Source: a virus. From it: a DNA stretch of 21,079 nucleotides. The translations under genes were made by a program, and so were the position numbers. Shown in pieces: positions 3,881 through 21,079 of the stretch. Within the stretch, counting starts at the first letter, position 1, and the number at the start of each line of letters is the position of its first letter. The notes beneath the pieces are model-generated. The model made no database searches. It saw only the letters and a program-made list of their open reading frames with translations, and was not told the DNA's origin. The stretch spans positions 1 through 21,079 of the IMG/VR virus record IMGVR_UViG_3300042486_001089; one strand, given 5' to 3'.

Positions 3881-6800
3881 ATGGCAGAGAAAAATAATAA
3901 TAATAGAACTTTACAAGATGTAAAAAATTATACTTTTACCAAAGGTATTAATATAGAAACTTCTCCTGAAACTCAGCCTGAAAGTACTTATAGAGCTGCA
4001 TTAAATTTACTTAAAGAAAGTGAAGATGATCAAAACTTTTTAGCTACAGAATACTCTAATGAATTTAGATTAAAATTGCCAGGTAAAGTATTACACTCTA
4101 ATTTAATTAAACAAATTAATCAAGTAGTAGTATTTTTAAGTAATAATGAAATAGGTATATACGATCCTAATAAAAACACATATACTAAACTATATAATAA
4201 TCCTGATTTAAACTTTTCAATATATTTAGAATCTGTATCTTTTACAAAAACAGAGTGTGAAGATATTGTATTAATATTTTGGGATGGTGTTAATAGAATA
4301 AGAAATATTAACATTACTAAATTTTTAGACAATAATTTATCTGATGATAATGTAGAAGATTTAGAATTATTTAAAACAAGTGAAAAAAGTATATACTTAG
4401 ATACTGTAAATTTTAAAGAAAATTCTGCTTATAATATAGATGCAGGAATGTATAGACCTTTTATACAGTATGAAGATGAAGATGGTAATTCTACTAATTA
4501 TTATATTATATATGAAAATATACCTTTAATTGAAGATAGTTTAAACTCTAACTTTGAATTTATAGATGGTAATGATTCTAAAGTTTTAAATAAAAGTATA
4601 GAGTTAACTCTTAAAAGTGTTGATACAAAGTTTCCTTTTATAAATATTGGTTTTATAAAAACAGTTAAAGGAGTTTCTACTGCATTTTTATTTAAACAAA
4701 AGTATCCTGTTAGTCCTGAAATTAAAGTTACTTATGAAGGAGATACTACTTTTAACACAGGATTAAATATACAAGAGGTTGTTACAAAAAGAGCTTTTTA
4801 TTTATCAGCTAAACATGGATTAATCTATAATAATAGATTATTATTAAGTGGTTTAAAAGGTAAAAGAAATGTTGATTACCAGAAGTATGCCAATAATATT
4901 GATGTAAAGTATATTACAGGTAAGATTAATTTAAAAAGAACTAAAGGTTATAAAAATCCTCAACATATTATTCATCATAAGTCTTGGATGAGAGATGAAA
5001 ACTATATGTTAGGTATTGTTTTAGAATTTGAAGATTTAACAGAATCATTAGTTTATCCATTAATAAATAAAAAATATCCTAATTTTCCAGAGTTTACAGA
5101 TGAAGCAGGTTTATTTCCAGCTAATGATGATACTAAACTTTGTTGTAATAATGGAGAGAGACAGTTGTGGAAAGAAGTTAATACTGCAAAAAGAATTAAT
5201 GAAAAATATAATCCATATGCTGCAGATTTAAGTGTAAATGATGAGTGTCTAGGTAACATTAATCCTAATAGTAATTATATTAGATCTGAAGGTTATTTAG
5301 GTTATTATGAATCAGAAGAAAAATATCCTGTAATAGCTAGGTGTGAAAATTCTAATTCATTAGATCCTAATGATTATATATATCCTGTAGAAATTATAAA
5401 CAATAAAGTAGTAGGTAAAAATATTACTTTATTTAAAATGCCTGATTCTACTATAGAACCTTTTCATAATAATATAGTAGATGATGAAGCTATTACAGAT
5501 AATAAAAATAAATTTGATAGTAAGTTTGATGAAATTGAAATATACCCTTTAGGAATAAAATTAGAAAATGTGACAATGCCTACATTAGAAGAAACTGATG
5601 GAATTAAGGTAATTGGATATAGAGTAGTATATGTTAGAAGAGATAGTTTTAATAAATCAATTCAAGATAAAGGTTGGTTTGTTGAAATGTTTAAAAATAA
5701 GTTTAATGATAGAGAATATATTTATCCTAAACACAATGTAAACTCGGGAGCAAAGTGGGATTATTTTTCTAATTTAAGAGATAAAGCTATAGAAACTGAA
5801 AATCCTGTACAAAATTTTGTTAAAAATTCTGGTTATGGATCTCACTATGATAATGGTATTATGTTTTATGGAGCAAATACTTTATCTTACAAGCCAGGTT
5901 TAAATGTTAATCACATTAAAGTAGAGCAACAATATAACAGTATTGGTTCTTATATAGACTCTATAGATGGTATAAATACTAGTCCAGGAAGCGGAGGAGA
6001 TGAAGTTATAGATCCGTCAACATTTAAAGATAAAGATGGTAGATTAAGAAGTACAGCTATTCAAATATATAATCTATATAATTATGGTTATACTCAAAAT
6101 AATAATGGCTCTATAACCAAGCAAAATGAGTTTAAGAATAGGTCTTTAAAACACACTATAAAAAATGTATGTGTTGATAATTATTCTTATGTAAATAATA
6201 ATGTAATTTTAAATAAAATATTAAATTCTGATTATTCTTTAGTAAACTATTATAGAGAAGATGGGGTTTATTTAGATTTTAAAAATTCTTCAGATCTGTC
6301 TTTTAATAAAGATTTAAAGTTTTTTAACTCAGATACTTCTGCTAAGAAATGTGGAAATTTTCCTTCTCCAGGTTTTGAACCTTTAGATAGAATAGTTGCT
6401 GGAAGTTATACTATAATATCTTCTGACACTATAGAGATTCCAGCCGTAGGAGATATAGAAGATTATCAAATTAATGATATTTTATACTTTCAATCAGGGT
6501 TGTTTAATAATTTAGTTCCTGGTACACCTTTTAAACTTATAAGTAAAGTTAGTAATAAACTAAGAATACAATTAATTAGCGGAACATTACCTACTTTAGG
6601 TATACCTATGAGTTTTTCAGTGCAACCTAATATAGCTATAAATGTTAGTTTTGAAATTATTACTAATAAAATAGTTAATTTTGTAAATAAATTTCCTTTA
6701 AATAGTGAAATAACTGTTACATCATCGACAAATAACTTATTCTTACCCCCTACTACTAAATTTAAAGTAATCTCTAATACTCAAATAGAAGTAATAGGAA

Positions 6801-8821
6801 CTAATGAATTAACTCCTACTAATACAGTAACAGTAAATTTTATAGCCACAGGACCTCCTTTACCTCCTATAATTAATTTTAAAGAAGATTATATAGATAA
6901 TAAAACTGGTAGTGATATTTTTAGTAAATGTAATCATGGTTTTATTTACTATGGATCTATTAAAAATTTCTTACCTAAACAATATGGTGGTATAAATGAA
7001 ATGTTTTTTATAGATACAGGTTTAAAATCTAGACCTTGTGAAAAAAATATAGCAGGATTTTATGGAGATAGTTATATAAATACTTTTTCATTTGTAAGAA
7101 CAGGTGTTACAGGTATGCTAGAAGATTCTTATATTAATGATGAGAGTCATCTTTGGATTGATAAAAATGATAAAACTTATACTATTCAAAATATTGTAGG
7201 TACAGATAATAGATCTTATTTATTAAATTTGTTTTTACCTCAAAAACCAAATGTAACATTACTTAATACTGTAATTGAATCTGATGTAAATTTAGATTTA
7301 AGATACGAAGGTCCTACTTTTAATGAAACTTATTATCCTAAATTATCTAATAATAGATACAATTTATATTCTAATTTAAAGACTGATTACGCTGAAGATT
7401 GTTTTTTAAATAATTATTTTTATGAATTAATTTGTAGAGATAAAGATGACAACTGTACGTCTTCAATGACTGAAGAAATTGAATATAATGATGCTTATAA
7501 AAATTTCCATTCTAATTCTATTATTTTAAATAATGATTATAATGAATTAAATGGTATGAGGTTTTTATTATTAAAACCTGTCACAAATACAGACAAATTT
7601 TGTGACTGTGATTTTGAGTTTGATAATAGAATTGCAATATCTACAGCTAACAATGAAGCAATAAGTAGACTTAATTATAGTAAGTTTTTACCTAATGATT
7701 ATATTACTTTACCACACAAAGAAGGTAAAATAACCAACTTATTTAAAGAGAACCAAATACTATATGCTCATACAACAGATAATATCTGGAAGTTACTTAC
7801 TTTAGAGTCAAAATTACAAGCAAGTACTACTCAAGTATATTTAGGAACTAATGATTTTTTAAGTTCTCAACAGTTAGAGTTATTTGCCTCTAATGAAGGT
7901 TATATGGGTTTACAAGATAAAAGATTTAAATTCCAAAATAATGCAGGATATTTCTTTGTAGACTTAAAGACACAAAGTGTTAATTTAATGTCTGGAGGTA
8001 AATTAGATAGTATATCTAGTTATGGTATGAGTGGGTTTTTTAGAAGTAACTTTAAAAAGTATTTTAATTCTTATCAAGTAAATCCTGATTTAAAAAATGT
8101 TGAAATAAACTTTGGATATGATTACAGACATAAAAGACTTTTAATGACTGATAAGGGTAATGAATTTACTCTTTCTTATTATCCTGAAGATAAAGCTTTT
8201 TATTCATTCCATTCTTATCTTCCTATAGCTTATATACAAAATAGAGACACTTTTTTTACTCAAAGTGATAACTATGATTTATATATACACGAAGATAATT
8301 TTAATTCTTATAGAAGATTTTATGGAGTACACTATCCTTCTATTTTAGACGGAGTATTTACTTATCATCCTTTATTATATACTAATTTTAATAATATGGG
8401 ATTAAAGATAGATGCTTTTAATAATATAAATGGACAGCAAGTATTATTACAAGAGCCTCCTACAAGTGTTAGTATATGGAATGGGCATCAACACAGTGGA
8501 GAGATATTTATTAAAACTCCTGTAAATGAGGATTATATGTCTAATGTAGTATTAGGTAATCAACCACATCATTTTGTAAATGGAATACTATATTTAAATA
8601 ACTTCTCTAACTTTGTATTAGACCAAAGTCAACCATTTTTACAAGGTACTATCTTTAAAGAACCTAACAATAATGTATCTTTTAGTAAAAATTGGACAGA
8701 AATTAATAGACTAGAAAGTAACTTTTTCAACTATAGAGTTAAAATAGATGACAAAGATTTAGAAAATTTAAAATTTATACTTAAATTTACAATTCTTAAT
8801 TATAACATATCAATGAGATGA
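3881..8821 (+). CDS. Large tail tube / muzzle protein (P22 gp10-like N-terminus)
   Basis: A 1,646-residue virion protein, the expected size class for the crAss-like muzzle, which extends the short tail below the ring proteins. The N-terminus (F-T-K-G-I-N-I-E-T-S-P-E-T-Q, then P-E-S-T-Y-R-A-A-L-N-L-L and S-N-E) matches the pattern with which these proteins begin. Beta-propeller-like strands follow (V-V-V-F-L-S-N-N-E-I-G-I-Y). The rest is long, Asn/Tyr-rich and beta-dominated, with scattered Cys pairs (L-C-C-N-N-G, K-F-C-D-C-D). A beta-rich, partly repeated stretch with a Pro-rich end lies at about residues 841-995. The late section (S-K-L-Q-A-S-T-T-Q-V-Y-L-G, G-G-K-L-D-S-I-S-S-Y-G) resembles a phage tail fold near the C-terminus. 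The stop TGA overlaps the next start (ATGA). Confidence 0.75.
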   Translation: MAEKNNNNRTLQDVKNYTFTKGINIETSPETQPESTYRAALNLLKESEDDQNFLATEYSNEFRLKLPGKVLHSNLIKQINQVVVFLSNNEIGIYDPNKNTYTKLYNNPDLNFSIYLESVSFTKTECEDIVLIFWDGVNRIRNINITKFLDNNLSDDNVEDLELFKTSEKSIYLDTVNFKENSAYNIDAGMYRPFIQYEDEDGNSTNYYIIYENIPLIEDSLNSNFEFIDGNDSKVLNKSIELTLKSVDTKFPFINIGFIKTVKGVSTAFLFKQKYPVSPEIKVTYEGDTTFNTGLNIQEVVTKRAFYLSAKHGLIYNNRLLLSGLKGKRNVDYQKYANNIDVKYITGKINLKRTKGYKNPQHIIHHKSWMRDENYMLGIVLEFEDLTESLVYPLINKKYPNFPEFTDEAGLFPANDDTKLCCNNGERQLWKEVNTAKRINEKYNPYAADLSVNDECLGNINPNSNYIRSEGYLGYYESEEKYPVIARCENSNSLDPNDYIYPVEIINNKVVGKNITLFKMPDSTIEPFHNNIVDDEAITDNKNKFDSKFDEIEIYPLGIKLENVTMPTLEETDGIKVIGYRVVYVRRDSFNKSIQDKGWFVEMFKNKFNDREYIYPKHNVNSGAKWDYFSNLRDKAIETENPVQNFVKNSGYGSHYDNGIMFYGANTLSYKPGLNVNHIKVEQQYNSIGSYIDSIDGINTSPGSGGDEVIDPSTFKDKDGRLRSTAIQIYNLYNYGYTQNNNGSITKQNEFKNRSLKHTIKNVCVDNYSYVNNNVILNKILNSDYSLVNYYREDGVYLDFKNSSDLSFNKDLKFFNSDTSAKKCGNFPSPGFEPLDRIVAGSYTIISSDTIEIPAVGDIEDYQINDILYFQSGLFNNLVPGTPFKLISKVSNKLRIQLISGTLPTLGIPMSFSVQPNIAINVSFEIITNKIVNFVNKFPLNSEITVTSSTNNLFLPPTTKFKVISNTQIEVIGTNELTPTNTVTVNFIATGPPLPPIINFKEDYIDNKTGSDIFSKCNHGFIYYGSIKNFLPKQYGGINEMFFIDTGLKSRPCEKNIAGFYGDSYINTFSFVRTGVTGMLEDSYINDESHLWIDKNDKTYTIQNIVGTDNRSYLLNLFLPQKPNVTLLNTVIESDVNLDLRYEGPTFNETYYPKLSNNRYNLYSNLKTDYAEDCFLNNYFYELICRDKDDNCTSSMTEEIEYNDAYKNFHSNSIILNNDYNELNGMRFLLLKPVTNTDKFCDCDFEFDNRIAISTANNEAISRLNYSKFLPNDYITLPHKEGKITNLFKENQILYAHTTDNIWKLLTLESKLQASTTQVYLGTNDFLSSQQLELFASNEGYMGLQDKRFKFQNNAGYFFVDLKTQSVNLMSGGKLDSISSYGMSGFFRSNFKKYFNSYQVNPDLKNVEINFGYDYRHKRLLMTDKGNEFTLSYYPEDKAFYSFHSYLPIAYIQNRDTFFTQSDNYDLYIHEDNFNSYRRFYGVHYPSILDGVFTYHPLLYTNFNNMGLKIDAFNNINGQQVLLQEPPTSVSIWNGHQHSGEIFIKTPVNEDYMSNVVLGNQPHHFVNGILYLNNFSNFVLDQSQPFLQGTIFKEPNNNVSFSKNWTEINRLESNFFNYRVKIDDKDLENLKFILKFTILNYNISMR
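6401..6865 (+). other. Beta-rich repeat-containing segment within the muzzle protein
   Basis: Residues about 841-995 of the muzzle protein differ in character from the rest: richer in Ile, Val, Ser, Thr and Pro and poorer in Tyr and Asp. Two similar units can be seen, each with T-x-F-K-[LV]-I-S followed by an N and a strand (residues 882 and 959, about 77 apart). The stretch ends in the linker G-P-P-L-P-P. The DNA also uses more C-ending and CpG-containing codons here (for example near 6443 and 6724). This suggests a duplicated Ig-like or carbohydrate-binding type domain inserted into the muzzle. The boundaries are approximate. Confidence 0.45.
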
Positions 8822-10116
8822 TAAATAAAAAGAAAACTAATCTTAATAAAACTAAGTCTTCAGGGTGGTTAAATGACTACTCTGAAGATTTTTTTATTAA
8901 TAAATACCCTGCAGGTGGATTTATGACATATCAAGATGCTTATAAAGGGTTTGGGACAGGTCCTGAACTTTATCAAGATAATTCATACTTTAGAACTATA
9001 GTTCCAGATAACATTGAAGATATGGATGCTATGATAAATGAACCTAGTATTTTTTCTACTATTAATAATGTTTTAGGTACAGCTAATCAAGTTGTAAATG
9101 CTGGTACAGGGTTAATGAGTAGGTTTCAAACCTCACAAACAGGCTATGAAGGGTTAAGTGATAATGCTAAAAGTATGTTTGATTATTCTAAAATGATGAA
9201 TAATGCAGAACAAGGCTTTACAGGATTAAATTTCGATAATACAAATTTACCTTCAATGATAAGTGGAATAGGTGGAGAAGGTCAAACTTTTGGTGGATTT
9301 GGTTCACAGGGAAATAAAGGTATTTTACAAGGAATGTCCTTTATAAAAAAAGATGGAGGTATGGTTCCTAAATTTGCAGGAGGAGGGTTAGCAGAAATTT
9401 ATGGTAATAGTTATGGGGGTAATACTAATAATCCAAGAATATATAATTCAAATAATAATAGAGCTACTGTCCAAGACTTACAAAGAGTAAGAAGAAATGA
9501 CTTCTTAAACACTAAAGTTAGAAAAGATAGACAATCTTTTGAAGATGATAAAGTAGATTGGGGTTTTATGAATTGGGCTAAAGAACCAGTAGGAGCTACA
9601 CTAGGAGTACTTAGTACTGTTCCTGGAGTAGGTAATATAGTAGATGGTGCTTTAGGAGATTCTTTTTTAACTAGAACAGGAGGATATACTGTAGGTTCTG
9701 GAGTAGGTAATACTGCTATGGGAACAGCAAAAATAATTGGAGGTATAGGTACAGGTAACGTTGGAATGGTAAGTAGTGGTATAGGAGATGTTGGTGAAGG
9801 AGTTGGTAGTACAGTAGGTACTTTTCAAGCTAAAGATTCTTTAGCTAGTTATGATAAATCTGGTTATATTTCAGGTAACAGACTAGTAAATGCTTCTAAA
9901 GATTTTGGCAATATGATGGATACTGCAGGAAGTCTTTTTGGAAATGTTAAAGGTGGAGTAGATATGTTTGGTAAGTCAGGTAACTTTGGTAACATTATGG
10001 GTAATATGAAAGGTGGTCAAAAAGGTGCAAAAGGTTTTGGTAACTTTATGAGTAACTTTGTTATGGCTGAAGGTGGAAATATTAATAGTAAAAAAGGTTG
10101 GTTAGATCAACTATAA
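8818..10116 (+). CDS. Gly-rich putative cargo/ejection protein with GWL motifs at both ends
   Basis: A 432-residue protein immediately after the muzzle gene (4-base ATGA overlap), where crAss-like phages encode proteins packed in the tail and ejected into the host. The N-terminus has S-S-G-W-L-N-D-Y and N-K-Y-P-A-G-G; the C-terminus ends in K-K-G-W-L-D-Q-L, so a G-W-L-[ND] motif flanks the protein. Residues about 250-330 form a Gly/Val/Ile/Ala-rich stretch (G-V-L-S-T-V-P-G-V-G-N-I-V, then G-S-G-V-G-N-T-A-M-G) compatible with membrane insertion. Two copies of a short GG motif occur, K-D-G-G-M-V-P-K-F-A (from residue 178) and M-A-E-G-G-N-I (10063-10083). There is no signal peptide. Cargo function is inferred from position and composition; no enzyme motif is visible. 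Confidence 0.55.
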   Translation: MINKKKTNLNKTKSSGWLNDYSEDFFINKYPAGGFMTYQDAYKGFGTGPELYQDNSYFRTIVPDNIEDMDAMINEPSIFSTINNVLGTANQVVNAGTGLMSRFQTSQTGYEGLSDNAKSMFDYSKMMNNAEQGFTGLNFDNTNLPSMISGIGGEGQTFGGFGSQGNKGILQGMSFIKKDGGMVPKFAGGGLAEIYGNSYGGNTNNPRIYNSNNNRATVQDLQRVRRNDFLNTKVRKDRQSFEDDKVDWGFMNWAKEPVGATLGVLSTVPGVGNIVDGALGDSFLTRTGGYTVGSGVGNTAMGTAKIIGGIGTGNVGMVSSGIGDVGEGVGSTVGTFQAKDSLASYDKSGYISGNRLVNASKDFGNMMDTAGSLFGNVKGGVDMFGKSGNFGNIMGNMKGGQKGAKGFGNFMSNFVMAEGGNINSKKGWLDQL

Positions 10117-10127
10117 AAAATAATTAT

Positions 10128-12407
10128 ATGAAAGAATTAATTTTAAAATTAGCAGGTGTTAGTAGTGAAGAAGAATTTTACTCTTTATATCCTACACAAG
10201 AATCTTTCTTTGAAAAGAATCCTGAAGCTGTTGAAATAATTAATAATTATAAACAGAGTCAAGGTATAGAATCTATGGCTAATGGAGGACTTATGGGTAA
10301 TAAAGTACCTATTCAAGCAGAAACTTATCAAGGACAACCTGAACAAGTTGTACTTCCAGATGGAACTGTAGATTCTGTAAATGCTCAAACTTCCCATGAA
10401 AATATGTCAGATGATAAAGTAACTGATATATTACCTGAAGGAAGTCATATTCAAAGTGCTAGGAATAAACTTACTCCTGAGCAATATGAGCAACTATTAA
10501 GTATGTTTGACCCAAAAGGTGCTGAAAATAATAAGAAGCTGTTAGATCAAGTTTCTAAGGGTAAAAATAAGAAAATATCTCCTGCAGAAATATCAGAATA
10601 TGCTAAGAAAAATTATCAAAAGGAATCTACTCCTAATTCTTTTGATACTGATAAATTAAAAGAAAGTAATAAAAAATCTTTTATAGATTTATCTATGAAT
10701 TTAAATGATTTAATTAAAGCAGGTAAAGAATTATCTGAAGGTATTTTACCAACAGAAGTAATGGCTTGGGGAGGACCTATTGGTAAATATGCTGAAGGAG
10801 ATAAAGTAATAGATTATAACAATATTTCTATAAGTAATTTAGAAGATTTAAAAAAATATTTAAATCAGTTTGGAATAGATCCTGAAACTAATTTACCTAA
10901 TTATAAATTTAAAGATTTAGAAAATACTAAAAAAAGATATATTGATTTAGCTAACCAAGTAAATGATAAAGAGTTAGTAAGTAAATTAAAAAATTTACAA
11001 GGTTCTTCAGAAAAACAATTTGAAGAATTAAAAAAAGCTGCAGGTAAATTACAAAATTTTCATAAATTAAATAACCCTAAACTATCTTTAGATTTTACAT
11101 TAGATACTAAAGATACTAGAACTTCTTTACCTACAGTAATTAAATATGGTAAAGAACTAGGATTGTCTGAGAATGAAATAAGTTTATTATCTAAAAATAA
11201 AAATAAAGGGTATCATAGTCAACCTAAAAATATTCAAAATATTTTAGATAAAGCTAACGAGCAATTACCTTTAACTAGTCCAGAAATTCAAAATGAATTT
11301 GTAAATACTAGGTTTGTAGATAATGAAGCATATTATAGAATGCCTGAAAAGTTTCAATTTAACTTTGGAGATATTTCAAATCCTAATAGTCCACAGTCTC
11401 AAGCTTATAAATATTATTTAGAAAATTTTTATCAATCAGAACCTGTTCAAAATAATTTAGTAAAAAATTCTTACGGTAAATACAGTGCTCCTATAGGTTA
11501 TACAACTATGCCTGTAGATAATATTGAAGATTGGAAAAAAAGTAATAATGTAGAAAGTAGTTTTAATCCTGGTACTTTTTCAAATCCTGGTTCAGGATTA
11601 GGTAACATTTCTTTTAAACCTATATTAGAAAATGCAAATACACCTGAAAATGTTTTACCTAAAGTTGATAATTTAAGTTTAGGAAATCCTCAAAGTATAG
11701 TAGCTCCTCAAAATAATCCTATGACTAGATTTAATTCAGGATTATTAGAAAGTCAGTTAAATAGAGGTTTACAAGGTAATCAAGCTTACTTAAATGCAGC
11801 TATGGATTTATCTCCTGTTTATACTATGGAAACTCCTGATACATTTATTAGAAGTAGAAGGAATGAAATACCTGTAGGTAACATATTATATAATATTGAA
11901 AAAGCACAGAGAGATTCTGCAAATGCATTAGCTGCACAGACAGGAGATTGGAGTACTTTAGCAAGTAATATTGCAAATTCTGGAGCCAATGCTTATAATC
12001 AAATAGGTGATACTTTAAGTGCTCTTAATGAAAAAAATGTAGGTCTTTATAACACTACACAAGATTTACAACAAAACTTATTAAGTTCTAATGTAGGGGT
12101 AAGAAATCAAAATCTTACTAATATGCAAAATATGATGAATTATAAAAGGAACTTAATGGGACAAAAAGCTGTTAAAGATGCAGAACTATACTCTAATTAC
12201 TCTAAATCTATTTCTGAAAATGCTCAAAAGGAACAGAATCAAAAGATGGAATTACTTAATGTAATGGCATCTAAACCTGATATGTTTAAAGGAGAAAGAG
12301 GGCAACAGTTTGCAAATCAGATTATGGGTAATTATGGATCTTATAATAATCCTTTTTCAGGATCAGTATTAGATTTTGGTATAAACTTTTTTAATAAAAT
12401 AAATTAA
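10128..12407 (+). CDS. Putative cargo/ejection protein, 759 residues
   Basis: Start chosen at the ATG at 10128, 11 bases after the preceding stop; the frame also extends upstream to a TTG at 10098, but that lies inside the previous gene. The N-terminal 50 residues are a small acidic helical region (S-S-E-E-E-F-Y-S-L-Y-P). Then come M-A-N-G-G-L-M-G-N-K (10275-10304) and a segment with L-P-D-G-T-V-D-S-V, S-H-E-N and L-P-E-G-S-H-I-Q-S, a pattern I associate with crAss-like virion proteins. A second GG motif, M-A-W-G-G-P-I-G-K-Y, is at 10761-10790. The middle is hydrophilic and mainly helical. The last 200 residues are a long Ala/Asn/Gln-rich helical region (A-Q-R-D-S-A-N-A-L-A-A-Q). No catalytic motif is recognised. 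It is likely one of the proteins carried in the tail and injected, by position and composition. Confidence 0.55.
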   Translation: MKELILKLAGVSSEEEFYSLYPTQESFFEKNPEAVEIINNYKQSQGIESMANGGLMGNKVPIQAETYQGQPEQVVLPDGTVDSVNAQTSHENMSDDKVTDILPEGSHIQSARNKLTPEQYEQLLSMFDPKGAENNKKLLDQVSKGKNKKISPAEISEYAKKNYQKESTPNSFDTDKLKESNKKSFIDLSMNLNDLIKAGKELSEGILPTEVMAWGGPIGKYAEGDKVIDYNNISISNLEDLKKYLNQFGIDPETNLPNYKFKDLENTKKRYIDLANQVNDKELVSKLKNLQGSSEKQFEELKKAAGKLQNFHKLNNPKLSLDFTLDTKDTRTSLPTVIKYGKELGLSENEISLLSKNKNKGYHSQPKNIQNILDKANEQLPLTSPEIQNEFVNTRFVDNEAYYRMPEKFQFNFGDISNPNSPQSQAYKYYLENFYQSEPVQNNLVKNSYGKYSAPIGYTTMPVDNIEDWKKSNNVESSFNPGTFSNPGSGLGNISFKPILENANTPENVLPKVDNLSLGNPQSIVAPQNNPMTRFNSGLLESQLNRGLQGNQAYLNAAMDLSPVYTMETPDTFIRSRRNEIPVGNILYNIEKAQRDSANALAAQTGDWSTLASNIANSGANAYNQIGDTLSALNEKNVGLYNTTQDLQQNLLSSNVGVRNQNLTNMQNMMNYKRNLMGQKAVKDAELYSNYSKSISENAQKEQNQKMELLNVMASKPDMFKGERGQQFANQIMGNYGSYNNPFSGSVLDFGINFFNKIN

Positions 12408-12413
12408 AATTAA

Positions 12414-13763
12414 ATGAGTCAAAGAAGAAATCCAGCAGGGATGTTTCCTGGAGCTTTTGGAGGATTCTCTAGAATTGGAGAACAAGAGATGTATGATCCT
12501 ACTTGGACAAATATAAACTTTGGAAATTTTGAAGGACTAAATATGGATTTAGTCAATAGAAATGCTGAGTTTTCTCAAACTATAGCTAATAAAAGATATG
12601 AAGAGATGATGGAAGCTCAGAATAAGTTATTAGAAGAAGTTAAATTAGGTAAAAGATTTGATTACTTAGAGAATGAATTAAAGAATAAATTAGCATCTGT
12701 TATTGAAAATGCAGGTAATGTTCAATTATCTGATAATGCTAATTTCACAAAATTAAATAGTAATTTAATTTCTCTAAAGCATGATCCTAATTTAAAACAA
12801 GCTATGTACTCTACTGAACAAGCTAAGAAGTATAAAGAAATGTTGGATAAAGATCCTAATCTTAAAAATAGACCTTGGGATGATGCTAACTATACTCAGT
12901 TTAATAATTTTATAAATGGCCAGACAAATGATTTTGAATTAAAACCTGTTTATAAAGATGTTGATTTAGTTGCTACTTGGGATGATTTCTTTAAAACTTT
13001 ACCTAAGTCTGAAATAGATAAATTAGAAAAATATGGTCCTTATGGTTTATTACAAGCTAGAGAAGAAGGTAGAGATGTAGGAGAATTAATTAAAGCAATA
13101 GAACAATTTAAAAACTTTACTATATTAAATAATCCTGAAATTAATTCTAATTTAGAAAGAAGAAGAGGTTATTTTGCTAGTCAAGGTTTAGACCCAAATG
13201 AGAGTGTAGATAAATTTATTAATGATAGTTTAATGGCATCAGCTAGTAAATATGCTACTAAAAATAGAACTATTAAGGGTGTTGAAATGGATGTTAACCA
13301 AAGTGGTAGAATGCAAGATAGACAGTTACCAATTTCTGAAAGAAATGCTGCTAACAGTTCTTCATCTTCTTCATCAAATTCAAACTCAGGTTCAGGATCA
13401 GGTTCAGGACCTTATAGTTTAATAGGTACAGCAGTAATGCAAGGTAATAAAGCAGCTCCTGCACCTTTACAAAAACAATTAGCATCAACACTAAATGCAG
13501 AAGCAACAAGAAGACTACTTGCTAAAAATACAAAAAGTTTAAAAGAAGAGGATATAACAGAAGTACATCCTGCTTATGTTGACAATGATGGTAATTATGT
13601 AGTAAAAGTAGATTATACAAAATATGATCCTGTATCAGAAAAAGATGTAATAAGTAGTACTAAAGCAACTATTGAACCAAGTTTTGTAAATAATATTCTT
13701 CAAACTTTTAATTCAAACACACAATCAAATAATACCAACACACAAACTCCAAAATTTAACTAA
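12414..13763 (+). CDS. Putative cargo/ejection protein with Ser/Gly linker, 449 residues
   Basis: A hypothetical protein in the same operon, 6 bases after the previous gene and only 1 base before the next. The first 20 residues are Gly/Phe-rich (M-F-P-G-A-F-G-G-F). Residues about 50-110 are strongly helical and could be a coiled coil (R-Y-E-E-M-M-E-A-Q-N-K-L-L-E-E). A middle helical region runs to about residue 280. A flexible Ser-then-Ser/Gly linker (315-332) joins a C-terminal domain that is Ala/Lys-rich and then beta-like (Y-V-D-N-D-G-N-Y-V-V-K-V-D-Y). The tail is Asn/Thr/Gln-rich and probably disordered. No enzyme motif is visible. The family is not recognised with certainty; the cargo role is inferred from synteny between the muzzle and the giant ORF. 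Confidence 0.52.
   Translation: MSQRRNPAGMFPGAFGGFSRIGEQEMYDPTWTNINFGNFEGLNMDLVNRNAEFSQTIANKRYEEMMEAQNKLLEEVKLGKRFDYLENELKNKLASVIENAGNVQLSDNANFTKLNSNLISLKHDPNLKQAMYSTEQAKKYKEMLDKDPNLKNRPWDDANYTQFNNFINGQTNDFELKPVYKDVDLVATWDDFFKTLPKSEIDKLEKYGPYGLLQAREEGRDVGELIKAIEQFKNFTILNNPEINSNLERRRGYFASQGLDPNESVDKFINDSLMASASKYATKNRTIKGVEMDVNQSGRMQDRQLPISERNAANSSSSSSSNSNSGSGSGSGPYSLIGTAVMQGNKAAPAPLQKQLASTLNAEATRRLLAKNTKSLKEEDITEVHPAYVDNDGNYVVKVDYTKYDPVSEKDVISSTKATIEPSFVNNILQTFNSNTQSNNTNTQTPKFN
13356..13409 (+). repeat. Low-complexity Ser/Gly linker-coding stretch
   Basis: Seven serines, an S-N-S-N-S step and alternating Gly-Ser (residues 315-332 of the 449-residue protein) are encoded by TCT/TCA-rich near-repeats followed by GGTTCA/GGATCA repeats. 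The encoded peptide is a classic flexible linker separating the helical N-terminal part from the C-terminal domain. Such repeats are prone to length change by slippage. Confidence 0.8.
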
Positions 13764-13764
13764 A

Positions 13765-16700
13765 ATGGATTTATATAATTATTTAAGATCTAACAATTTA
13801 ACTGATTTAGATAGAGATTCTTTTTTTAAAAAATATTCTAATCCTCAAGAAGGTCAAAAAATTTATAATTATTTAAAATCTAAAGGAGGTACAGATCTAG
13901 ATTTTAACTCTTTTAATAGTAAATATTTATCTGTTAAACCTACTATTCAGCAACCTGCAAAACCTGTTGCTAAAAAAACAGAACCAGGACTCATTGATAA
14001 AGCTACAAATTTTATTGCTGATAAACTAGATGATTACAAAGTTGATTTAAGTAATTTAAAAACTCCTAAATCTAATAAAACTGTAGATCCTTTACTAGAA
14101 GGATATAAACCTACTGGTAATATTATTGATAAAAAAGAAGAGGTTGAAAATAAGTATAATACAGAATATAATAAAAAATTATCAGATATTTCTTTTGTGT
14201 TGTCAACAATGTATCCCGATGAAGTAGCTTCATCTGATATTAAAACTATAGAAAAAAAAATAAATAGTTTAAGTCCTTTACAAGGTGTATTAAAAAAAGA
14301 TTTAACTAGACAGTTAAATGAATTAAAAAAAACTAAAATTAATAAAAATTTAGAGTTAAATCAATTAAAATCAGAAGCTAATAATCCTAAGTATTATAAA
14401 GTAAGTGATGATGAAAGTAAGTCTATTGTTAACAAAAATATGACTGCTATTAATCAATCTAAAGAAAAAATAAAAAATATATCTAAAGAAAATATTCTTT
14501 TAAAGACTTTAAAAACACCTAATAAAAATGGTATATTAAGTAATATAGGAGAAATGTTTGGAGTGTCTACATTACTTGATACTTGGCAAAATTATAATGA
14601 TAAGAATAAAGTTATTAATGAAGAAAATAGAAAAATTAAATTAGCTAAAAAAGATTTAGATTATTTAAATAGATACAAAATAGATATAAATAAAACCTTA
14701 GCTTCTATGACTCCTGAAGAAAGGTTACAAACTGAAGCTTCTTTAGATCCTGAATTAAAAGGATTTTTAAAATCTGCTAAAAAACTTAAGAATAGAGAAG
14801 ATGAATTTTCTTTTAATAATTTATATGAAGAGTTAACAAATAAAAATTATAAAGGAGAAAAAGATGAACTCAAAGTAAAAGGATATAATTCAGAAAAAAA
14901 CTTAGAAAATTATTATAATAAAGTTGCTGAAAACACAAGATTAAGGACAGATAATTTAAATGCAAAACCTAAACAAGATTTACAAGAAATTATTGCACAA
15001 AATAAATTGCAAGATATTTTTAATGTAGATGATATAAAATTTCAAGACATTATTGAAAACTATGATATAGTTAAAAATAATCCTCAAGGATTAATAGCTC
15101 ATTTTAATGACCCTGAAGCTATTCAAAAATTTCAACTAATAGAACAAACTAAAGAGTTTCAAGAAATAGTAGCTAATCATAAATTAGCTAACACTGTAAA
15201 TGATGCAAGAGTTGAAAATAATTTTAAAAAACTTCTTGAAAATAAACAAAAAGGTTTAAATGCTTTAAATTATATTAACCAGTTAAATAAAAATCAACAA
15301 TTATCTGAAGACTATTTAGAACAAAAAGCTAAAGAATCTGGATTTTTTAGTAAAGATAATTTAAAGTTTTTATTATCTCAAGGAGGAGAAGCTGTAGATT
15401 ATACTTCAGCTTATACTAAACAACTAGCTGGTAAAATTGGAACTACTGTTAATGGTGATAGTGAGTCTTTAAGAAAGTTAGAATATGGTTTTGATTTGTA
15501 TAAAGAAGTTACTGATGCTAAAGGAGAAGAAGTTTTATCTCCATTTTCAGATGCTAAATGGATTGACTTACCAACTAAAGGAGGAAGAAGTTATCAAATA
15601 GCTGTTGACCCTAAAGGCAATTATTTAGGAGCTAGATATGATAAATTTAGTATACCCGTAGATGATGCTAAAAATGAACAACTAAGACAATATTATTTTA
15701 AAAACAAAGAAGAATTAGATAAGTTAAAAAAAGATATTACAGATATAGATGGTGGATTTTCAGCTTCAACAGGTTATATAGCATCTGAAGTAGCTGTAGG
15801 TGCTTTAGAAGAATTACCAACTACTGCTTTTGAAATTGCAGCAACAGCTATATCAAGAACTCCAGTAGCAGGGGCTAGACTTTTAAGTAGGGCACCTAAG
15901 TTTGCAAACTGGGGAAACAAATTAAGAAAAAGTGAGAACTATATTAAAGGTTACAATAACATAGCTGATAATTTTATAGGTTTAACTTCAACGTATGCTG
16001 AAGTAGGTCATGATATTAAAAAGAGTTATGAAGAAGCAGGATTAGATCCATCAGATTTAAATACAGGAATAACTGCAGGTGCTTTAACTGGAGTTGCACA
16101 ATTAACTCCTGGTATGGAAAAACTTGCTAGAAAGTTTGGTTCTGACTTAGTAGAAGGTACTATAAGAAAAGAAGCTAAAGAAGTTTTTTTAACAGATATA
16201 CCTAAGATATTACCTACACTTTCAAAAGGACTTGTAGATATTAAAGATGCAAAATTAAAGGATTATTTATTAAAAAAAGAATTAAGAAATTATGCTTTAT
16301 CTAGATTTACAGAAAGAAGTGTAAATGTTTTAAAACCTTTTGTAAATGAAGGTTTACAAGAGTCTGCAGAGGAAACAATTTTAGAGCCTATAGCACAGTT
16401 ACTAGCTAATCAAGCTAATTCTATGTTAACAGGTAATGAACTTTATAATAAAGAAACTTTACAAGACTTAGGATTTTTAGATCCTGAGACTGCATTAATT
16501 GCAGGTTTAACTGGAGGGGTAATGTCTTCAGGTATTAATACAGTTTCAAATTTAATGTTAAAAGATAAAAATGGATTAAATTCTTTAGAAGCTTTACAAG
16601 CTGCTATGGAGAATCCTAATAAATTTAAATCTTTATTATCTACTTATATTCAAGGCAATAGTGATTCTGACAAAACTTTAACTCAAGAAAAGTACGATGA

Positions 16701-19700
16701 AATTATTTCTAATTTTGACAATATAAAAGCTAATGTAGATAAAGTAAAAAAAGACTATAATTTAAATAATGAATTTACTACTAAAACAAATTTAGATAAT
16801 TCAACACTTCAAACTATGTTAAAAAGTGCAGGGTTAAATAAAGATAATTTTAGTACTCAAGAAGGTTCTAATACTTTAGAGAAAATTATTTTACAGAATG
16901 AAATAAATAATACTAAAAAACAAGATCTTTCTAAAGATATTTTAGAGAGACTTGGTGTACCTAATGATAAACAAGAATTAAGTTTAGATCAATTTTTAGA
17001 TCAAAATGGTTTGTTTGATACTAAAAAATATGCAGAAATTACAGGTAATAGTAATTTAGATCCTGAGACTGCTAAGATTGTAGCAAATTATAATCAATTA
17101 CAAACTAAAGATTTAAAATTAAAGAATACATTAAATTTATTTAATGAAAATTTTAAAGATATTCAAGATAATTATTTAAATAGTTATCAAGAAGTTATAT
17201 CTAATAGTCCTGATTTAACTAGACCTGAGTTATCTATATATGATGATGTTGTTAAAGATAAGCTTTATAATAAAGCTATTAATGATAAAAGAATTGCTCA
17301 GTTAGAGAAAGAAATAAGTTCTTTTGAAAATGTAGAAAAAGATAAAAAACTTAATGAAGAATTAAGGCAATTAAAAGATAATAATCAATCTTTACAGAAA
17401 TCTATTGATAATATAACTAATACTTACAAAGAAGGATTTATAGAAACACAAGATACTATTTCAGCTTTAGAAGATGAGTATATGTTAGCTAGTGCTAACT
17501 TAAATAATGCTTTAGAAAGTTATTATAAAACAGATGATGTAAATGAAGAAGAAGAAAATAATATAAGTGAGTTAATTGCTAATAAATCAAAAGCATTAGC
17601 TAAATTAAAGAAAGAATACAATGCTGCTAATAAAAAATATAATAATGGTATTACAGCTAATACTTTAAAAGCTAGTGTTTTAGAAGAAAGAAAGGATGGG
17701 TCTAGTACTAAAAATGTAGTTGTTGAAAAAGATTTTTCAGAGGACTTAGAAAAAGAATTAAAAAAAGGTAAAGATTATGTTAAAAAAATAAAAAGATATA
17801 AAGAATTATTAAATAAATTTAAAACATCTTTTTTAACAAAACAAGAATTTTTAGAATTTAGAAAATTTCAAAGAAGTTTTGACAATAAAGAAGTTTTAAA
17901 AAATGTATTACCTTATTTTGCTTCTTCTTTAACTAAAGAAGAGATAGATACAAGATTATCTGGCAACTTAGATTTAACTATTTCTCTATTTAACAACTTA
18001 ATGAGTTTAGGTTATATAATGCCTGGAGGTATTCCTAAGCAAATTAATTCTGAATTATTAATAACTAAAGTTCAAAATGCTTTATTAACTTTAAATAGAG
18101 ATTTAAGTTTAATTAATAGTAATAGAATTAATGAAATACCTTTATTTACTAGAGCGCAAAGTGCTATGTATGTTAATAGCTTAATAGATGCTTTAGAGAA
18201 TAATAATAAAAAAGAAGAAACATCTGCTGAAAAAGAAACAACTGATGAAACTGCAGATCCTATAATTGTAGAACCTGAAGCTATTGTAAATCCTACTGAA
18301 CAGAGTTATACTACTATTGAAAAACCTGTTATAAATGCTACTAATAAGCAACAAGAAGCTTTAGAGCTTATTGAAAAAAATAGTATTAAAAGAAGTGATT
18401 TAAATGATGAAGATATAACAGATTCTTTTTATATTATAAATAACAAACCTTATCAAAGAGTTACTACAGTAGATTCTGAAAAACCAACTATATCTGAAGC
18501 TTTAACAGCTGGAAGTAATGTAGGTAATTTTTTAGATAATGTAGGTAGAATAATTTTCGGTAATAATAATATTACTGAAAAAAATGCAGATGAAATATTT
18601 AATATTTTATTACTTACTTTTAAAGAAAAAGGTATAGAGTTAGAGATAGATAAAGATAATTATTTAAGAACTTTTAAATATCTTGTTGACAGAAGAAATG
18701 ATTTAATAACAAAAGGTTATATCTTTATTTCTGATGAAAGAGTAATTTATAACAAGTATGATGGTGTGTATATTAATACTGGAAATTTAGAAAAAATGCC
18801 TGAAGGATCTGTGGGTATTGCAGGTACAATGGATATTGTAGCTATAGCACCTAATGGTACTGTAGATATTATAGATTTAAAGTCAGTGTCTGACAACAGT
18901 AAAAAAGCTTCTACTAATGCCAGTTTATATAAAAAAACAAAATGGGCTAAACAATTAGGTATCTATAAAACTTTATTAGAAAAAATAAATGGAGTTAAAG
19001 TAAATAACTTAAAAGTATTAAGAAGTAATGTAACTTATAATGTAAACAATAATGGTAATAGAATTACTAATTTAAGATTTACTGAAAATAACTTTGAAAA
19101 TATTAATGTTTCTAAAGAGATTTTAGAAGTTATAAATAACTATTTATCAATTCCAACTTTAGTAGTAGATCCTACAAACAATGTAAATCCTGTAGATGAT
19201 TTTATAGAAGATAATCCTGAAGATAGTATTTCTGAAAGTGCATTTGAGGATATTCCTTTTCCTGATGAAGATGAATTTGAAATACCTGAAGATAGTAAAG
19301 GTATTATGGATTTTATGTTTCAACAAGAACTTGATGAAAGTTTACAAGAGTCTCCTGTGTTTGATGATGCTCCTATATTTGAAGATGAGGGTAGTTATGA
19401 ATATGACTCTAATGAAGAGGTGTTTATAGATGATAATACTAACCCTACTTTAGAAGAAGCTGATAGAATATTTGGTACAACTGATGTTGAAGAAAATACA
19501 ATATTAAGAACAGATTTAGAAATAAATCTAAACAATAATGAAAGAGGAAGTAAAAATTTTTCAGAAAAAGATAATACTATTTGGGTTAGTGCTGACCCAA
19601 GAGTTGTATTTAAACGTTTATTTAGAGAAAAAGGTATTAGAACTAATAGTCCTATTGTATTAAGTAATGTAAGAACAATTAACAATCAAAAAATTTATGA

Positions 19701-21079
19701 ATTTTATAGACAAAATCCTGATGCTACTAATGACCAAGGGTTTATAGGGTTTTCATTTATATTAAACAAAGAGTTAGACTTAACAGATGCTCAAATAGAA
19801 GAAATAACAAATTTAGCTCAAAATATTATAGATAGATTTGCTATAGAAAATGGTAAAGTAAAATATTATTCTTCTATGGGGGAACAACAAAGAAATAATA
19901 TTAGAGAAGAATTTGCTAATGGAATTTTAAATATAATAAATAATAAACAAGCACTAGAAAGTAAACAAACCCCTTTACAACCGACTGAAAAAAGTAAACA
20001 AGAAAGTTTACAAACTAATTTAGCTACACCTACTCCTTCAAATTTAATAAGTCAAACTGTTACTCAAGAAAATACTAAATCTGATTTTGAAGAGAATAGT
20101 AATTTCCTTGAGGATCAACCTTTAAATAATTATTATGATACAGGTAGATATACTTATATTAACTATGAAGTATTTGAAGATGAAAATGGAGATAAAGAAT
20201 ATTTAGTTTCAGTGTATAACAATTTTTCTTTAGATAAATTATTTGGTAAGAAAAAAATAAAAGAAAAAGAATTACAAGAAATATTTAAAAATAATAATTT
20301 ATTCTTTTCTCCTAAGATAAAAAGTAAAGGTACTTATTTATTATTATCTAAAGATAAACAACCTATAGATTCTTATGTATACTCTCAAATAAAAAATAAT
20401 CCTAATGTACCTTTTTCTACAACTATTAATAGTGTTAATTATCAAGATTTAGAAGGATTAGAAGGAGAAATAGTTTTATTAGATGTTCCATATAATAATA
20501 CTTTAAAAAATGAAAAAGATTTTAGAGATAAAGCAAGTTTAGGTATTAGGGTTGCAGGAGAAATAGTAGCAATGATTCCTTCTTTTTCTATTAATAATAA
20601 AAATAGTCAAGTAAGAAATACTTTAAATATAACTAATGTAAATGGAGTATTTCAAGTAGAACCTTTTAAAGTTAAGATAGATAAAGTAAAAGAAGGTTCA
20701 ATGATATTTAACCAATCTCCAGTTTCAGTTTCAAAAATATTAGATAATCCTCCGACAGGGTTTACTGTTAAAGTAGCTTATGTAGGTATTAAAGATAAGC
20801 AAAAAGTATTAGTTAATGCTTTTGGTGAGGATAGTTCTGATAGTTTAAAAAATATAAGTGCAAGTAAACTAACTCAGGGAGGTGTTTATTTAATTTTAGA
20901 AAAAAATGGAAAAGTAATTAAAGTACCCTTAAATACTCCTAAAGTTGGAGAGGTAGGACTTTTAGGAAAGGTTTCTGATAATATTAAGAAAAAAGAAATT
21001 ATATTAAATACTTTAAATTTAATTCCTATAAATTATAATAATAATATAGCTTCTAAAGAACAATTAGTTACTGATAATT
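13765..21079 (+). CDS. Giant multidomain virion/ejection protein with PD-(D/E)XK nuclease domain, 3'-truncated by the window edge
   Basis: An uninterrupted frame of 2,438 codons from the ATG at 13765, still open at the right edge. It follows the previous stop by 1 base. In order: a duplicated N-terminal motif (residues 3-54); a hydrophilic helical region to about 600; hydrophobic Gly/Ala segments at about 665-780 and 875-930, separated by a more polar helical part and carrying the related pieces L-D-P-S-D-L-N-T-G-I-T-A-G and L-D-P-E-T-A-L-I-A-G; coiled coil at about 1170-1265; a Glu/Thr/Pro-rich linker at about 1478-1520; a PD-(D/E)XK nuclease domain (about 1563-1795); an acidic linker (about 1811-1912); a mixed alpha/beta domain (to about 2065); a Gln/Ser/Thr linker; and a beta-rich C-terminal part with V-A-G-E-I-V-A-M-I-P. 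Size and position match the giant ORFs after the cargo genes in crAss-like phages. The D-x-D-G-D motif expected of their RNA polymerase is not seen here. Confidence 0.8.
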   Translation, partial: MDLYNYLRSNNLTDLDRDSFFKKYSNPQEGQKIYNYLKSKGGTDLDFNSFNSKYLSVKPTIQQPAKPVAKKTEPGLIDKATNFIADKLDDYKVDLSNLKTPKSNKTVDPLLEGYKPTGNIIDKKEEVENKYNTEYNKKLSDISFVLSTMYPDEVASSDIKTIEKKINSLSPLQGVLKKDLTRQLNELKKTKINKNLELNQLKSEANNPKYYKVSDDESKSIVNKNMTAINQSKEKIKNISKENILLKTLKTPNKNGILSNIGEMFGVSTLLDTWQNYNDKNKVINEENRKIKLAKKDLDYLNRYKIDINKTLASMTPEERLQTEASLDPELKGFLKSAKKLKNREDEFSFNNLYEELTNKNYKGEKDELKVKGYNSEKNLENYYNKVAENTRLRTDNLNAKPKQDLQEIIAQNKLQDIFNVDDIKFQDIIENYDIVKNNPQGLIAHFNDPEAIQKFQLIEQTKEFQEIVANHKLANTVNDARVENNFKKLLENKQKGLNALNYINQLNKNQQLSEDYLEQKAKESGFFSKDNLKFLLSQGGEAVDYTSAYTKQLAGKIGTTVNGDSESLRKLEYGFDLYKEVTDAKGEEVLSPFSDAKWIDLPTKGGRSYQIAVDPKGNYLGARYDKFSIPVDDAKNEQLRQYYFKNKEELDKLKKDITDIDGGFSASTGYIASEVAVGALEELPTTAFEIAATAISRTPVAGARLLSRAPKFANWGNKLRKSENYIKGYNNIADNFIGLTSTYAEVGHDIKKSYEEAGLDPSDLNTGITAGALTGVAQLTPGMEKLARKFGSDLVEGTIRKEAKEVFLTDIPKILPTLSKGLVDIKDAKLKDYLLKKELRNYALSRFTERSVNVLKPFVNEGLQESAEETILEPIAQLLANQANSMLTGNELYNKETLQDLGFLDPETALIAGLTGGVMSSGINTVSNLMLKDKNGLNSLEALQAAMENPNKFKSLLSTYIQGNSDSDKTLTQEKYDEIISNFDNIKANVDKVKKDYNLNNEFTTKTNLDNSTLQTMLKSAGLNKDNFSTQEGSNTLEKIILQNEINNTKKQDLSKDILERLGVPNDKQELSLDQFLDQNGLFDTKKYAEITGNSNLDPETAKIVANYNQLQTKDLKLKNTLNLFNENFKDIQDNYLNSYQEVISNSPDLTRPELSIYDDVVKDKLYNKAINDKRIAQLEKEISSFENVEKDKKLNEELRQLKDNNQSLQKSIDNITNTYKEGFIETQDTISALEDEYMLASANLNNALESYYKTDDVNEEEENNISELIANKSKALAKLKKEYNAANKKYNNGITANTLKASVLEERKDGSSTKNVVVEKDFSEDLEKELKKGKDYVKKIKRYKELLNKFKTSFLTKQEFLEFRKFQRSFDNKEVLKNVLPYFASSLTKEEIDTRLSGNLDLTISLFNNLMSLGYIMPGGIPKQINSELLITKVQNALLTLNRDLSLINSNRINEIPLFTRAQSAMYVNSLIDALENNNKKEETSAEKETTDETADPIIVEPEAIVNPTEQSYTTIEKPVINATNKQQEALELIEKNSIKRSDLNDEDITDSFYIINNKPYQRVTTVDSEKPTISEALTAGSNVGNFLDNVGRIIFGNNNITEKNADEIFNILLLTFKEKGIELEIDKDNYLRTFKYLVDRRNDLITKGYIFISDERVIYNKYDGVYINTGNLEKMPEGSVGIAGTMDIVAIAPNGTVDIIDLKSVSDNSKKASTNASLYKKTKWAKQLGIYKTLLEKINGVKVNNLKVLRSNVTYNVNNNGNRITNLRFTENNFENINVSKEILEVINNYLSIPTLVVDPTNNVNPVDDFIEDNPEDSISESAFEDIPFPDEDEFEIPEDSKGIMDFMFQQELDESLQESPVFDDAPIFEDEGSYEYDSNEEVFIDDNTNPTLEEADRIFGTTDVEENTILRTDLEINLNNNERGSKNFSEKDNTIWVSADPRVVFKRLFREKGIRTNSPIVLSNVRTINNQKIYEFYRQNPDATNDQGFIGFSFILNKELDLTDAQIEEITNLAQNIIDRFAIENGKVKYYSSMGEQQRNNIREEFANGILNIINNKQALESKQTPLQPTEKSKQESLQTNLATPTPSNLISQTVTQENTKSDFEENSNFLEDQPLNNYYDTGRYTYINYEVFEDENGDKEYLVSVYNNFSLDKLFGKKKIKEKELQEIFKNNNLFFSPKIKSKGTYLLLSKDKQPIDSYVYSQIKNNPNVPFSTTINSVNYQDLEGLEGEIVLLDVPYNNTLKNEKDFRDKASLGIRVAGEIVAMIPSFSINNKNSQVRNTLNITNVNGVFQVEPFKVKIDKVKEGSMIFNQSPVSVSKILDNPPTGFTVKVAYVGIKDKQKVLVNAFGEDSSDSLKNISASKLTQGGVYLILEKNGKVIKVPLNTPKVGEVGLLGKVSDNIKKKEIILNTLNLIPINYNNNIASKEQLVTDN
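13771..13926 (+). repeat. Tandem duplicated N-terminal protein motif of the giant ORF
   Basis: Residues 3-24 and 33-54 repeat the same pattern with a 30-residue period: [LI]-Y-N-Y-L-[RK]-S, then T-D-L-D, then S-F-x-x-K-Y. The two copies share most hydrophobic and aromatic positions. Similar short repeats sit at the N-terminus of other large Bacteroidota phage proteins, as far as I recall. They may be a docking tag that targets the protein to the virion. Confidence 0.7.
18451..19149 (+). other. PD-(D/E)XK (RecB/Cas4-like) nuclease domain inside the giant ORF
   Basis: All core elements of the superfamily appear in order. The domain opens with Y-Q-R-V-T at residue 1563 and a helix with G-S-N-V-G-N-F-L-D (from 1583), in the place of the usual G-x-x-x-H helix but without its His. 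The first acidic residue is D1690 in G-T-M-D, ahead of a strand (I-V-A-I-A). Next comes I-I-D-L-K, giving D1704-x-K1706, and then Q1730-L-G-I-Y1734, which fits the Q-x-x-x-Y motif of the RecB/AddB/Cas4 branch. Together these predict a magnesium-dependent DNA nuclease. The superfamily assignment is strong from motifs; the substrate is unknown. The end is approximate. Confidence 0.8.
19195..19500 (+). other. Highly acidic linker after the nuclease domain
   Basis: Residues about 1811-1912 of the giant ORF are dominated by Asp and Glu with scattered aromatic and Pro residues (F-E-D-I-P-F-P-D-E-D-E-F, V-F-D-D-A-P-I-F-E-D-E-G) and almost no basic residues. It is likely disordered. It could be a spacer, a DNA-mimicking inhibitor of the neighbouring nuclease, or a region that eases passage through the tail. 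Composition is seen; function is inference. Confidence 0.65.

Follow-up and report, generated by a model that had tools for sequence, protein, structure and literature searches.

Is the nuclease motif in the middle of a giant phage protein part of a real nuclease domain, and what would such a domain do there? The question is raised by a viral DNA of 21,079 nucleotides (positions 1 to 21,079 of IMG/VR record IMGVR_UViG_3300042486_001089), called the window below. The explanation that best covers the evidence as a whole, and that seems rather probable, is that the protein carries a nuclease domain of the kind found in gp47 of phage phi-crAss001, is packed in the virion, is injected, and engages DNA.

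The giant gene and its neighbours

The window contains an open reading frame on the plus strand (13765-21078) that runs through 2,438 codons without a stop and leaves the end of the contig still open. An earlier note on this DNA, made from its letters alone, had described an ORF of at least 2,438 residues behind muzzle and cargo genes, and this description holds. The genes are arranged as follows, with the basis of each assignment in brackets.

3881..8821, plus strand: homologue of the muzzle (tail tip) protein, 1,646 residues (PHROG 15100; tblastn to Fipvunavirus structural proteins)
8818..10116, plus strand: cargo-like protein 1, 432 residues, no cysteine (position, conservation in relatives; cysteine count)
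10098..12407, plus strand: cargo-like protein 2, 769 residues, no cysteine (position, conservation in relatives; cysteine count)
12414..13763, plus strand: cargo-like protein 3, 449 residues, no cysteine (position, conservation in relatives; cysteine count)
13765..21078, plus strand: giant cargo protein in the position of crAss001 gp47, 2,438 codons, 3' end past the contig (gene order, no cysteine)
20179..21069, plus strand: second conserved region 3' of the nuclease, residues 2139-2435 of the giant (phmmer, close relatives)

The muzzle homologue matches PHROG 15100, "virion structural protein", with E=4e-35. The order of muzzle, cargo, and giant is the same as in cr106_1, DAC15, frurule, and crAss001, which is the Steigviridae order. 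In the relative G014, whose muzzle is 63% identical to that of the window, the giant gene next after the nuclease giant carries the DxDxD motif of RNA polymerase. The gp47-type order of muzzle, cargo, giant, and RNA polymerase giants is thus present, as far as the giant in the window and for the rest in G014. Outside the 21-kb window, crAss001-like terminase, portal, and capsid proteins are encoded by G009, G010, G014, and G015, as found with crAss001 queries. Judged by sequence, the window represents a crAss-like phage lineage far from the gut families, and its muzzle lies closest, among the phage collection, to Fipvunavirus and Lbo-JY46. Residues 2139-2435 of the giant have phmmer matches in G009, G014, G016, L053, and L054.

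Several other features of the region can be mentioned. The N-terminus of the giant protein (13765-14000) has two short repeats of the form Y-N-x-L-x-x-x-x-x-x-D-x-x-x-F-x-x-K-Y, possibly a packaging element, which also occur in the relatives L041, L046, and L053. At the other end of the window, positions 51-1031 encode a homologue of DNA repair exonucleases of the metallophosphatase type (PHROG 22398/704), and a GIY-YIG homing endonuclease gene at 970-1653 overlaps it. G014, the closest relative of the window phage, has a ferritin-like protein (PF00210, 5e-15; 14871-15365 of locus L041) between two giants of the RNA polymerase block. The homologues of the cargo proteins at 8818-10116 and 10098-12407 have large insertions on the N-terminal side in L020, L021, L022, L023, L027, and L028. 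These measure hundreds to about 1,400 residues and are absent from the window copies; four of the enlarged proteins were scanned, three of them without a Pfam match. Finally, the G010 contig (119,980 bases) contains two diverged copies of the cargo genes and the nuclease giant. L053/L059 lie at the start of the contig and L051/L062 at the end. The doubling may come from a chimeric assembly or a mixed population, or it may be a true duplication.

The nuclease domain

The earlier note had proposed a RecB/Cas4-type nuclease domain at 18451-19149 of the window, corresponding to residues 1563-1795 of the giant ORF. Its three motifs are found exactly where it had placed them, and the region can be described by the following features.

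18298..19170, plus strand: PD-(D/E)XK nuclease domain as modelled, residues 1512-1802 (Pfam, AlphaFold, Foldseek)
18535..18537, plus strand: motif I position, D1591 (family alignment)
18823..18834, plus strand: GTMD, residues 1687-1690, with the catalytic D1690 (family alignment)
18874..18882, plus strand: DLK, residues 1704-1706, with the catalytic D1704 and K1706 (family alignment)
18952..18966, plus strand: QLGIY, residues 1730-1734, the QxxxY motif (family alignment)
19156..19569, plus strand: acidic linker, residues 1798-1935, 31% D+E and 4% K+R (composition)

The linker before the domain is only mildly acidic, in contrast to this strongly acidic one after it.

A strict form of the motif (GTxD, 8-20 residues, DxK, 12-40 residues, QxxxY) occurs once in the giant protein and in 0.1% of its shuffles (n=2,000). 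A loose form turns up in 5.8% of the shuffles, so the motif by itself is moderate evidence. When the domain is scanned alone, Pfam PDDEXK_1 matches it with E=3e-6 and 27.8 bits, against a curated cut-off of 22 (4.8e-6 for the domain as modelled), and PHROG 298, "exonuclease", matches it with E=8e-4. A Pfam scan of the entire 2,437-residue protein gives no match. Automatic annotation may therefore overlook the domain.

Structure prediction, a check that the earlier note had suggested, came out in favour of the domain. The AlphaFold model of residues 1512-1802, made from an alignment with 39 homologues from the loci gathered in this analysis, has a mean pLDDT of 88.2 and a pTM of 0.86. Its Foldseek matches in the PDB are PD-(D/E)XK nucleases, namely AddAB, AdnAB, RecE, ACE1/Cas4, Exo5, and MGME1, with modest TM-scores (best about 0.42). 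Among viruses, the top matches are proteins of crAss-like phages that already bear the name PD-(D/E)XK domain-containing. The layout of the model is the usual one, with D1690 in the region of the second core strand, D1704 and K1706 in the third, and Q1730 and Y1734 on the next helix. The motif-I histidine of RecB and Cas4 is replaced by an aspartate, D1591, as in nearly all of the family, and by a glutamate in L104.

Could the motif be a chance pattern in a disordered protein that has no nuclease fold? The rate of the loose motif in shuffles and the empty whole-protein scan would be in keeping with this. The idea is refuted, and left with next to no probability, by a Pfam score above the cut-off, a confident fold, matches to AddAB, RecE, and Exo5, and residues that are conserved over 40 sequences. 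Residues 1563-1795 are a PD-(D/E)XK domain of the AddA/RecE/Exo5-like kind in a gp47-type crAss-like cargo protein. By alignment, the catalytic set of the window copy is complete (D1591, D1690, D1704, K1706, Q1730, and Y1734). The superfamily given in the earlier note is thus borne out by Pfam and by the fold, but "Cas4-type" was too specific for a protein without cysteine, and AddA, RecE, and Exo5 are closer.

Conservation and the virion protein gp47

Relatives of the domain were found only with an alignment as query. A single-protein scan of IMG/VR with the domain gave no relative, nor did tblastn of the whole protein against the phage collection, and comparison of the domain model with PDB sequences gave chance matches only. 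The family gathered has 48 distinct sequences, of which 40, from very different phages, keep GxxD, DxK, and QxxxY. In the alignment, 39 other sequences line up with D1690, D1704, K1706, Q1730, and Y1734 of the window. The invariance of GT[LV]D is partly built in, having been demanded by one of the search patterns; the patterns of the main scan contained neither DxK nor QxxxY, and a QL/QV pattern was part of a smaller first scan. PDDEXK_1 is matched by 32 of 40 homologues and the Cas4 model, weakly, by 7 of 40.

The domain profile also detects phi-crAss001 gp47, at residues 1641-1910, with GEVD, DVK, and QLSAY intact. This is a 262.5 kDa protein of the virion, as established by mass spectrometry (Bayfield et al. 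2023, PMC10172136). Bayfield et al. describe it only as RNA-polymerase-associated and do not mention a nuclease. Its gene is transcribed late, unlike those of gp49 and gp50 (PMC8375218). The homologous domain in a protein detected in the particle agrees with the view of the earlier note that the nuclease sits in a giant, probably virion-borne protein.

Profile comparison with hhalign links the nuclease segment of the window clade to Steigviridae with a probability of 97.6 (E=3.7e-12) and to the crAss001 group with a probability of 92.4 (5e-7). No other segment of this protein of about 2,400 residues can still be recognised between the window clade and Steigviridae. The nuclease is therefore its conserved core, and no stray or casual insertion. 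The domain is not detectable in g067 of phi14:2, a protein detected by mass spectrometry and encoded beside the polymerase, so some crAss-like entry complexes can dispense with it. The C-terminal parts of gp47-type proteins vary, with an ADP-ribosyltransferase (ART-PolyVal) and zinc-peptidase-like sequences in cr85_1, cr128_1, and G009; that of G009 has an ART-like and an HEFGH sequence.

The arrangement is not new. Yutin et al. 2021 (PMC7886860) reported that large transcription-associated proteins of crAss-like phages can carry PDDEXK domains, and a 2023 review (PMC10136315) restated this, so a nuclease within a giant is a kind already known. What the comparison adds is an intact nuclease in a virion protein verified by mass spectrometry, a catalytic loss that recurred while the domain stayed constrained, and, as the most surprising lead, the cysteine rule described below.

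Loss of catalytic residues in close relatives

Do homologues in related phages keep the catalytic residues, as the earlier note had asked? Here the answer is divided, since close relatives lack them while more distant homologues keep them. In G014 the motifs read TTMD, INLR, and QLAFD. In G009, G016, and L053 they read TTPI and DFK, with QxxxY gone, and in G010 and G015 TPPI and DFR. A maximum likelihood tree, which has long branches, pairs the window with G014 (100/100) and puts the other five changed relatives in a separate clade, so there must have been at least two independent losses.

For the five relatives with lost catalytic residues, dN/dS is 0.14-0.23 in the domain, which amounts to strong purifying selection, and 0.25-0.36 in the protein part before it, from a small number of non-independent pairs. 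With dN/dS taken in windows of 150 codons, some of the lowest values in the protein fall in the domain. This low dN/dS despite the lost residues suggests that selection acts on a role other than catalysis. Judging again from sequence, catalysis is dispensable and the fold indispensable in this clade. A dN/dS value for the window and G014 was discarded, the pair being only 36-43% identical and saturated or misaligned. Sequencing artefact was likewise rejected as the cause of the losses; several contigs agree on the changes, and elsewhere the domain is under constraint.

The AlphaFold model of one changed copy, L052, has a pLDDT of 69 and a pTM of 0.72 and still finds ACE1 and AdnA in Foldseek, with the help of intact relatives in its alignment in reaching the PD-(D/E)XK fold. 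All four large relatives searched have a separate intact RecE-like PDDEXK gene of about 300 residues, and compensation of the decayed copies by this nuclease is possible. Further PDDEXK genes, however, also occur in crAss-like phages whose gp47-type domain is intact (PMC7886860). With catalysis lost in relatives, the activity of the window copy cannot be assumed; this copy keeps the complete set of residues and is probably competent.

Terminal cysteines of the giants

No cysteine occurs in the 4,087 residues of the window's giant protein and the three cargo proteins beside it, while the muzzle has 14. In related phages, the giant cargo and RNA polymerase proteins are nearly devoid of cysteine except at their ends. 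Of the 35 nuclease-bearing giants whose 3' end is complete, 25 carry a cysteine within their last seven residues, compared with 0.2 expected from their own composition, and eight of the remaining ten start with a cysteine near position 3-5. The adjacent proteins of the polymerase block start with MxxC, and the middle members have a cysteine at both ends. Control ORFs from the same loci have a terminal cysteine in 6-7% of cases and 10.8 cysteines per 1,000 residues.

At 63 junctions of adjacent large ORFs, a cysteine is present on both sides in 28, on neither in 34, and on one side in a single case (Fisher p=5e-17, which ignores relatedness). The junctions without cysteine are the starts of the muzzle, the cargo proteins, and gp47, apart from a broken gene in L054. 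Five further genomes, from three subfamilies of Suoliviridae, Intestiviridae and Steigviridae, all fit a prediction made beforehand, and the rule also fits phi14:2, p-crAss, FpV4, and Lbo-JY46. Loci on which it rests include L086, L096, L041, L043, L014/L048, L074, L084, L095, L103, and L104, among others; from named phages, crAss001 gp47/gp50/gp49 (L032), phi14:2 (L120), and p-crAss (L122); and cr271, cr118, cr53, cr50, and cr108 (L125-L129). crAss002 has the cysteine at the end of the upstream protein, but the next protein, with its start as annotated, shows none in its first 34 residues. In cr108_1 the break lies inside the DxDxD motif, is intron-like, and has no cysteine. The window sequence stops before the stop codon; its relatives G009, G014, and L053 have a cysteine near the C-terminus.

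The virion polymerase of N4 has no cysteine in 3,008 residues. The absence of cysteine from injected proteins is thus not special, and it is the paired terminal cysteines that are. A literature search, with little coverage of subscription literature, found no report of such a rule. Bayfield et al. 2023 (PMC10172136) ran samples both with and without reduction. The pairs are most readily read as a link between successive cargo proteins, through a disulfide or a metal, or else as a packaging tag; a processing signal may be an alternative to the disulfide. One specific version, possible but short of probable, is that disulfides join consecutive cargo giants under the oxidising conditions of the virion, that the chain is threaded out in sequence, and that the reducing cytoplasm of the host frees it. 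Here the pattern of cysteines is an observation, and the bond and its use are what we infer from it.

Possible functions

By analogy with gp47, the giant protein is probably part of the virion cargo and would reach the cell together with the DNA and the virion RNA polymerase. The likeliest of the mechanisms considered, put forward tentatively, is that the domain is the DNA-engaging part of this injected entry and transcription complex. The domain would grip the incoming genome, probably at a genome end. Where the active site is intact, it would trim or open that end and so allow polymerase loading or circularisation of the genome. In a few lineages the grip alone would be enough, and catalysis would have gone. 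A DNA-engaging role is favoured since the fold forms the protein's conserved core and outlasts the loss of catalysis.

The main rival is an injected effector. In this case the nuclease, as a domain of a polyvalent protein, would attack the DNA of the host, of plasmids, or of rival phages, or a DNA-based defence, early in infection. The giant homologue of cr85_1 (L006) has an ART-PolyVal domain in its C-terminal part (PF18760, 8e-22), and HExxH metallopeptidase-like motifs occur in cr85_1, cr128_1 (L007), and G009 (L043). Early host manipulation by injected multidomain proteins is argued for in the parts of Iyer et al. 2017 (PMC5512222) consulted here; for DNases, the same parts give ParB-like domains and no PD-(D/E)XK domain. 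Moreover, the nuclease is better conserved than any other part of the protein, unlike a fast-swapping effector, and the clade of the window keeps it under purifying selection after catalytic loss, which makes an effector unlikely. The same history, in which the closest relatives lost the active site at least twice independently while the fold was kept and dN/dS stayed low, could instead point to a mainly structural domain. Such a domain would be a module for DNA binding or protein docking, its catalysis vestigial in the window and its clade, and the separate intact RecE-like nuclease of the four large relatives fits this picture. It is doubtful, however, given that every catalytic residue is present in the window and in 39 other family members, and that the model of the changed copy L052 drew on an alignment with intact relatives.

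A nuclease for packaging or end maturation would work on the phage's own DNA in the maturing head, and not on the host. This is improbable, as tailed-phage terminases have a nuclease of their own, nothing in this analysis connects gp47 with packaging, and an active nuclease beside packaged DNA would need to be kept inactive. On its side are the late expression of crAss001 gp47 (PMC8375218) and the location of cargo near the portal (PMC10172136), beside the packaged end.

Whether the domain binds DNA or cuts it is the first question to ask, in view of repeated catalytic loss with a constrained fold. The virions of the most abundant gut phages contain megadaltons of protein of poorly known function. 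The intact nuclease site of crAss001 gp47, a protein detected in the particle, is a concrete enzyme to assay. The cysteine rule, if the disulfide reading is true, would explain how the giants are held together and ejected in order.

Comparison with known systems

Polyvalent proteins (Iyer et al. 2017, PMC5512222) are giant and multidomain, are encoded close to late virion genes, and are presumed to be injected. Relatives of the window share ART-PolyVal and metallopeptidase-like domains with them. In the 2,437 residues of the window protein, which lack the C-terminus, the nuclease is the only domain detected, and no polyvalent marker domain was found.

Cas4 and the Cas4-like ACE1 share the fold of the window domain. 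Cas4 has a four-cysteine Fe-S cluster; the window protein, with no cysteine in 2,437 translated residues, has no such cluster. Unlike for Cas4 and ACE1, no CRISPR or Argonaute context was seen around the window gene. AddA, AdnA, RecE, and Exo5 share both the fold and the order of the catalytic motifs. The window domain differs from them by its motif-I aspartate, by the absence of a helicase, and by its place inside a giant cargo protein.

The crAss-like proteins of Yutin et al. 2021 (PMC7886860) share the order-level group, the gene block, and the domain class with the window, and some of those phages likewise have the PDDEXK domain inside one large protein. The window lineage is divergent from them, and the catalytic loss of its relatives is not mentioned there. 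A parallel in position and size is phi-crAss001 gp47. While the two proteins have no detectable sequence similarity outside the nuclease, both are giants encoded after muzzle and cargo genes, and both carry the homologous PD-(D/E)XK domain.
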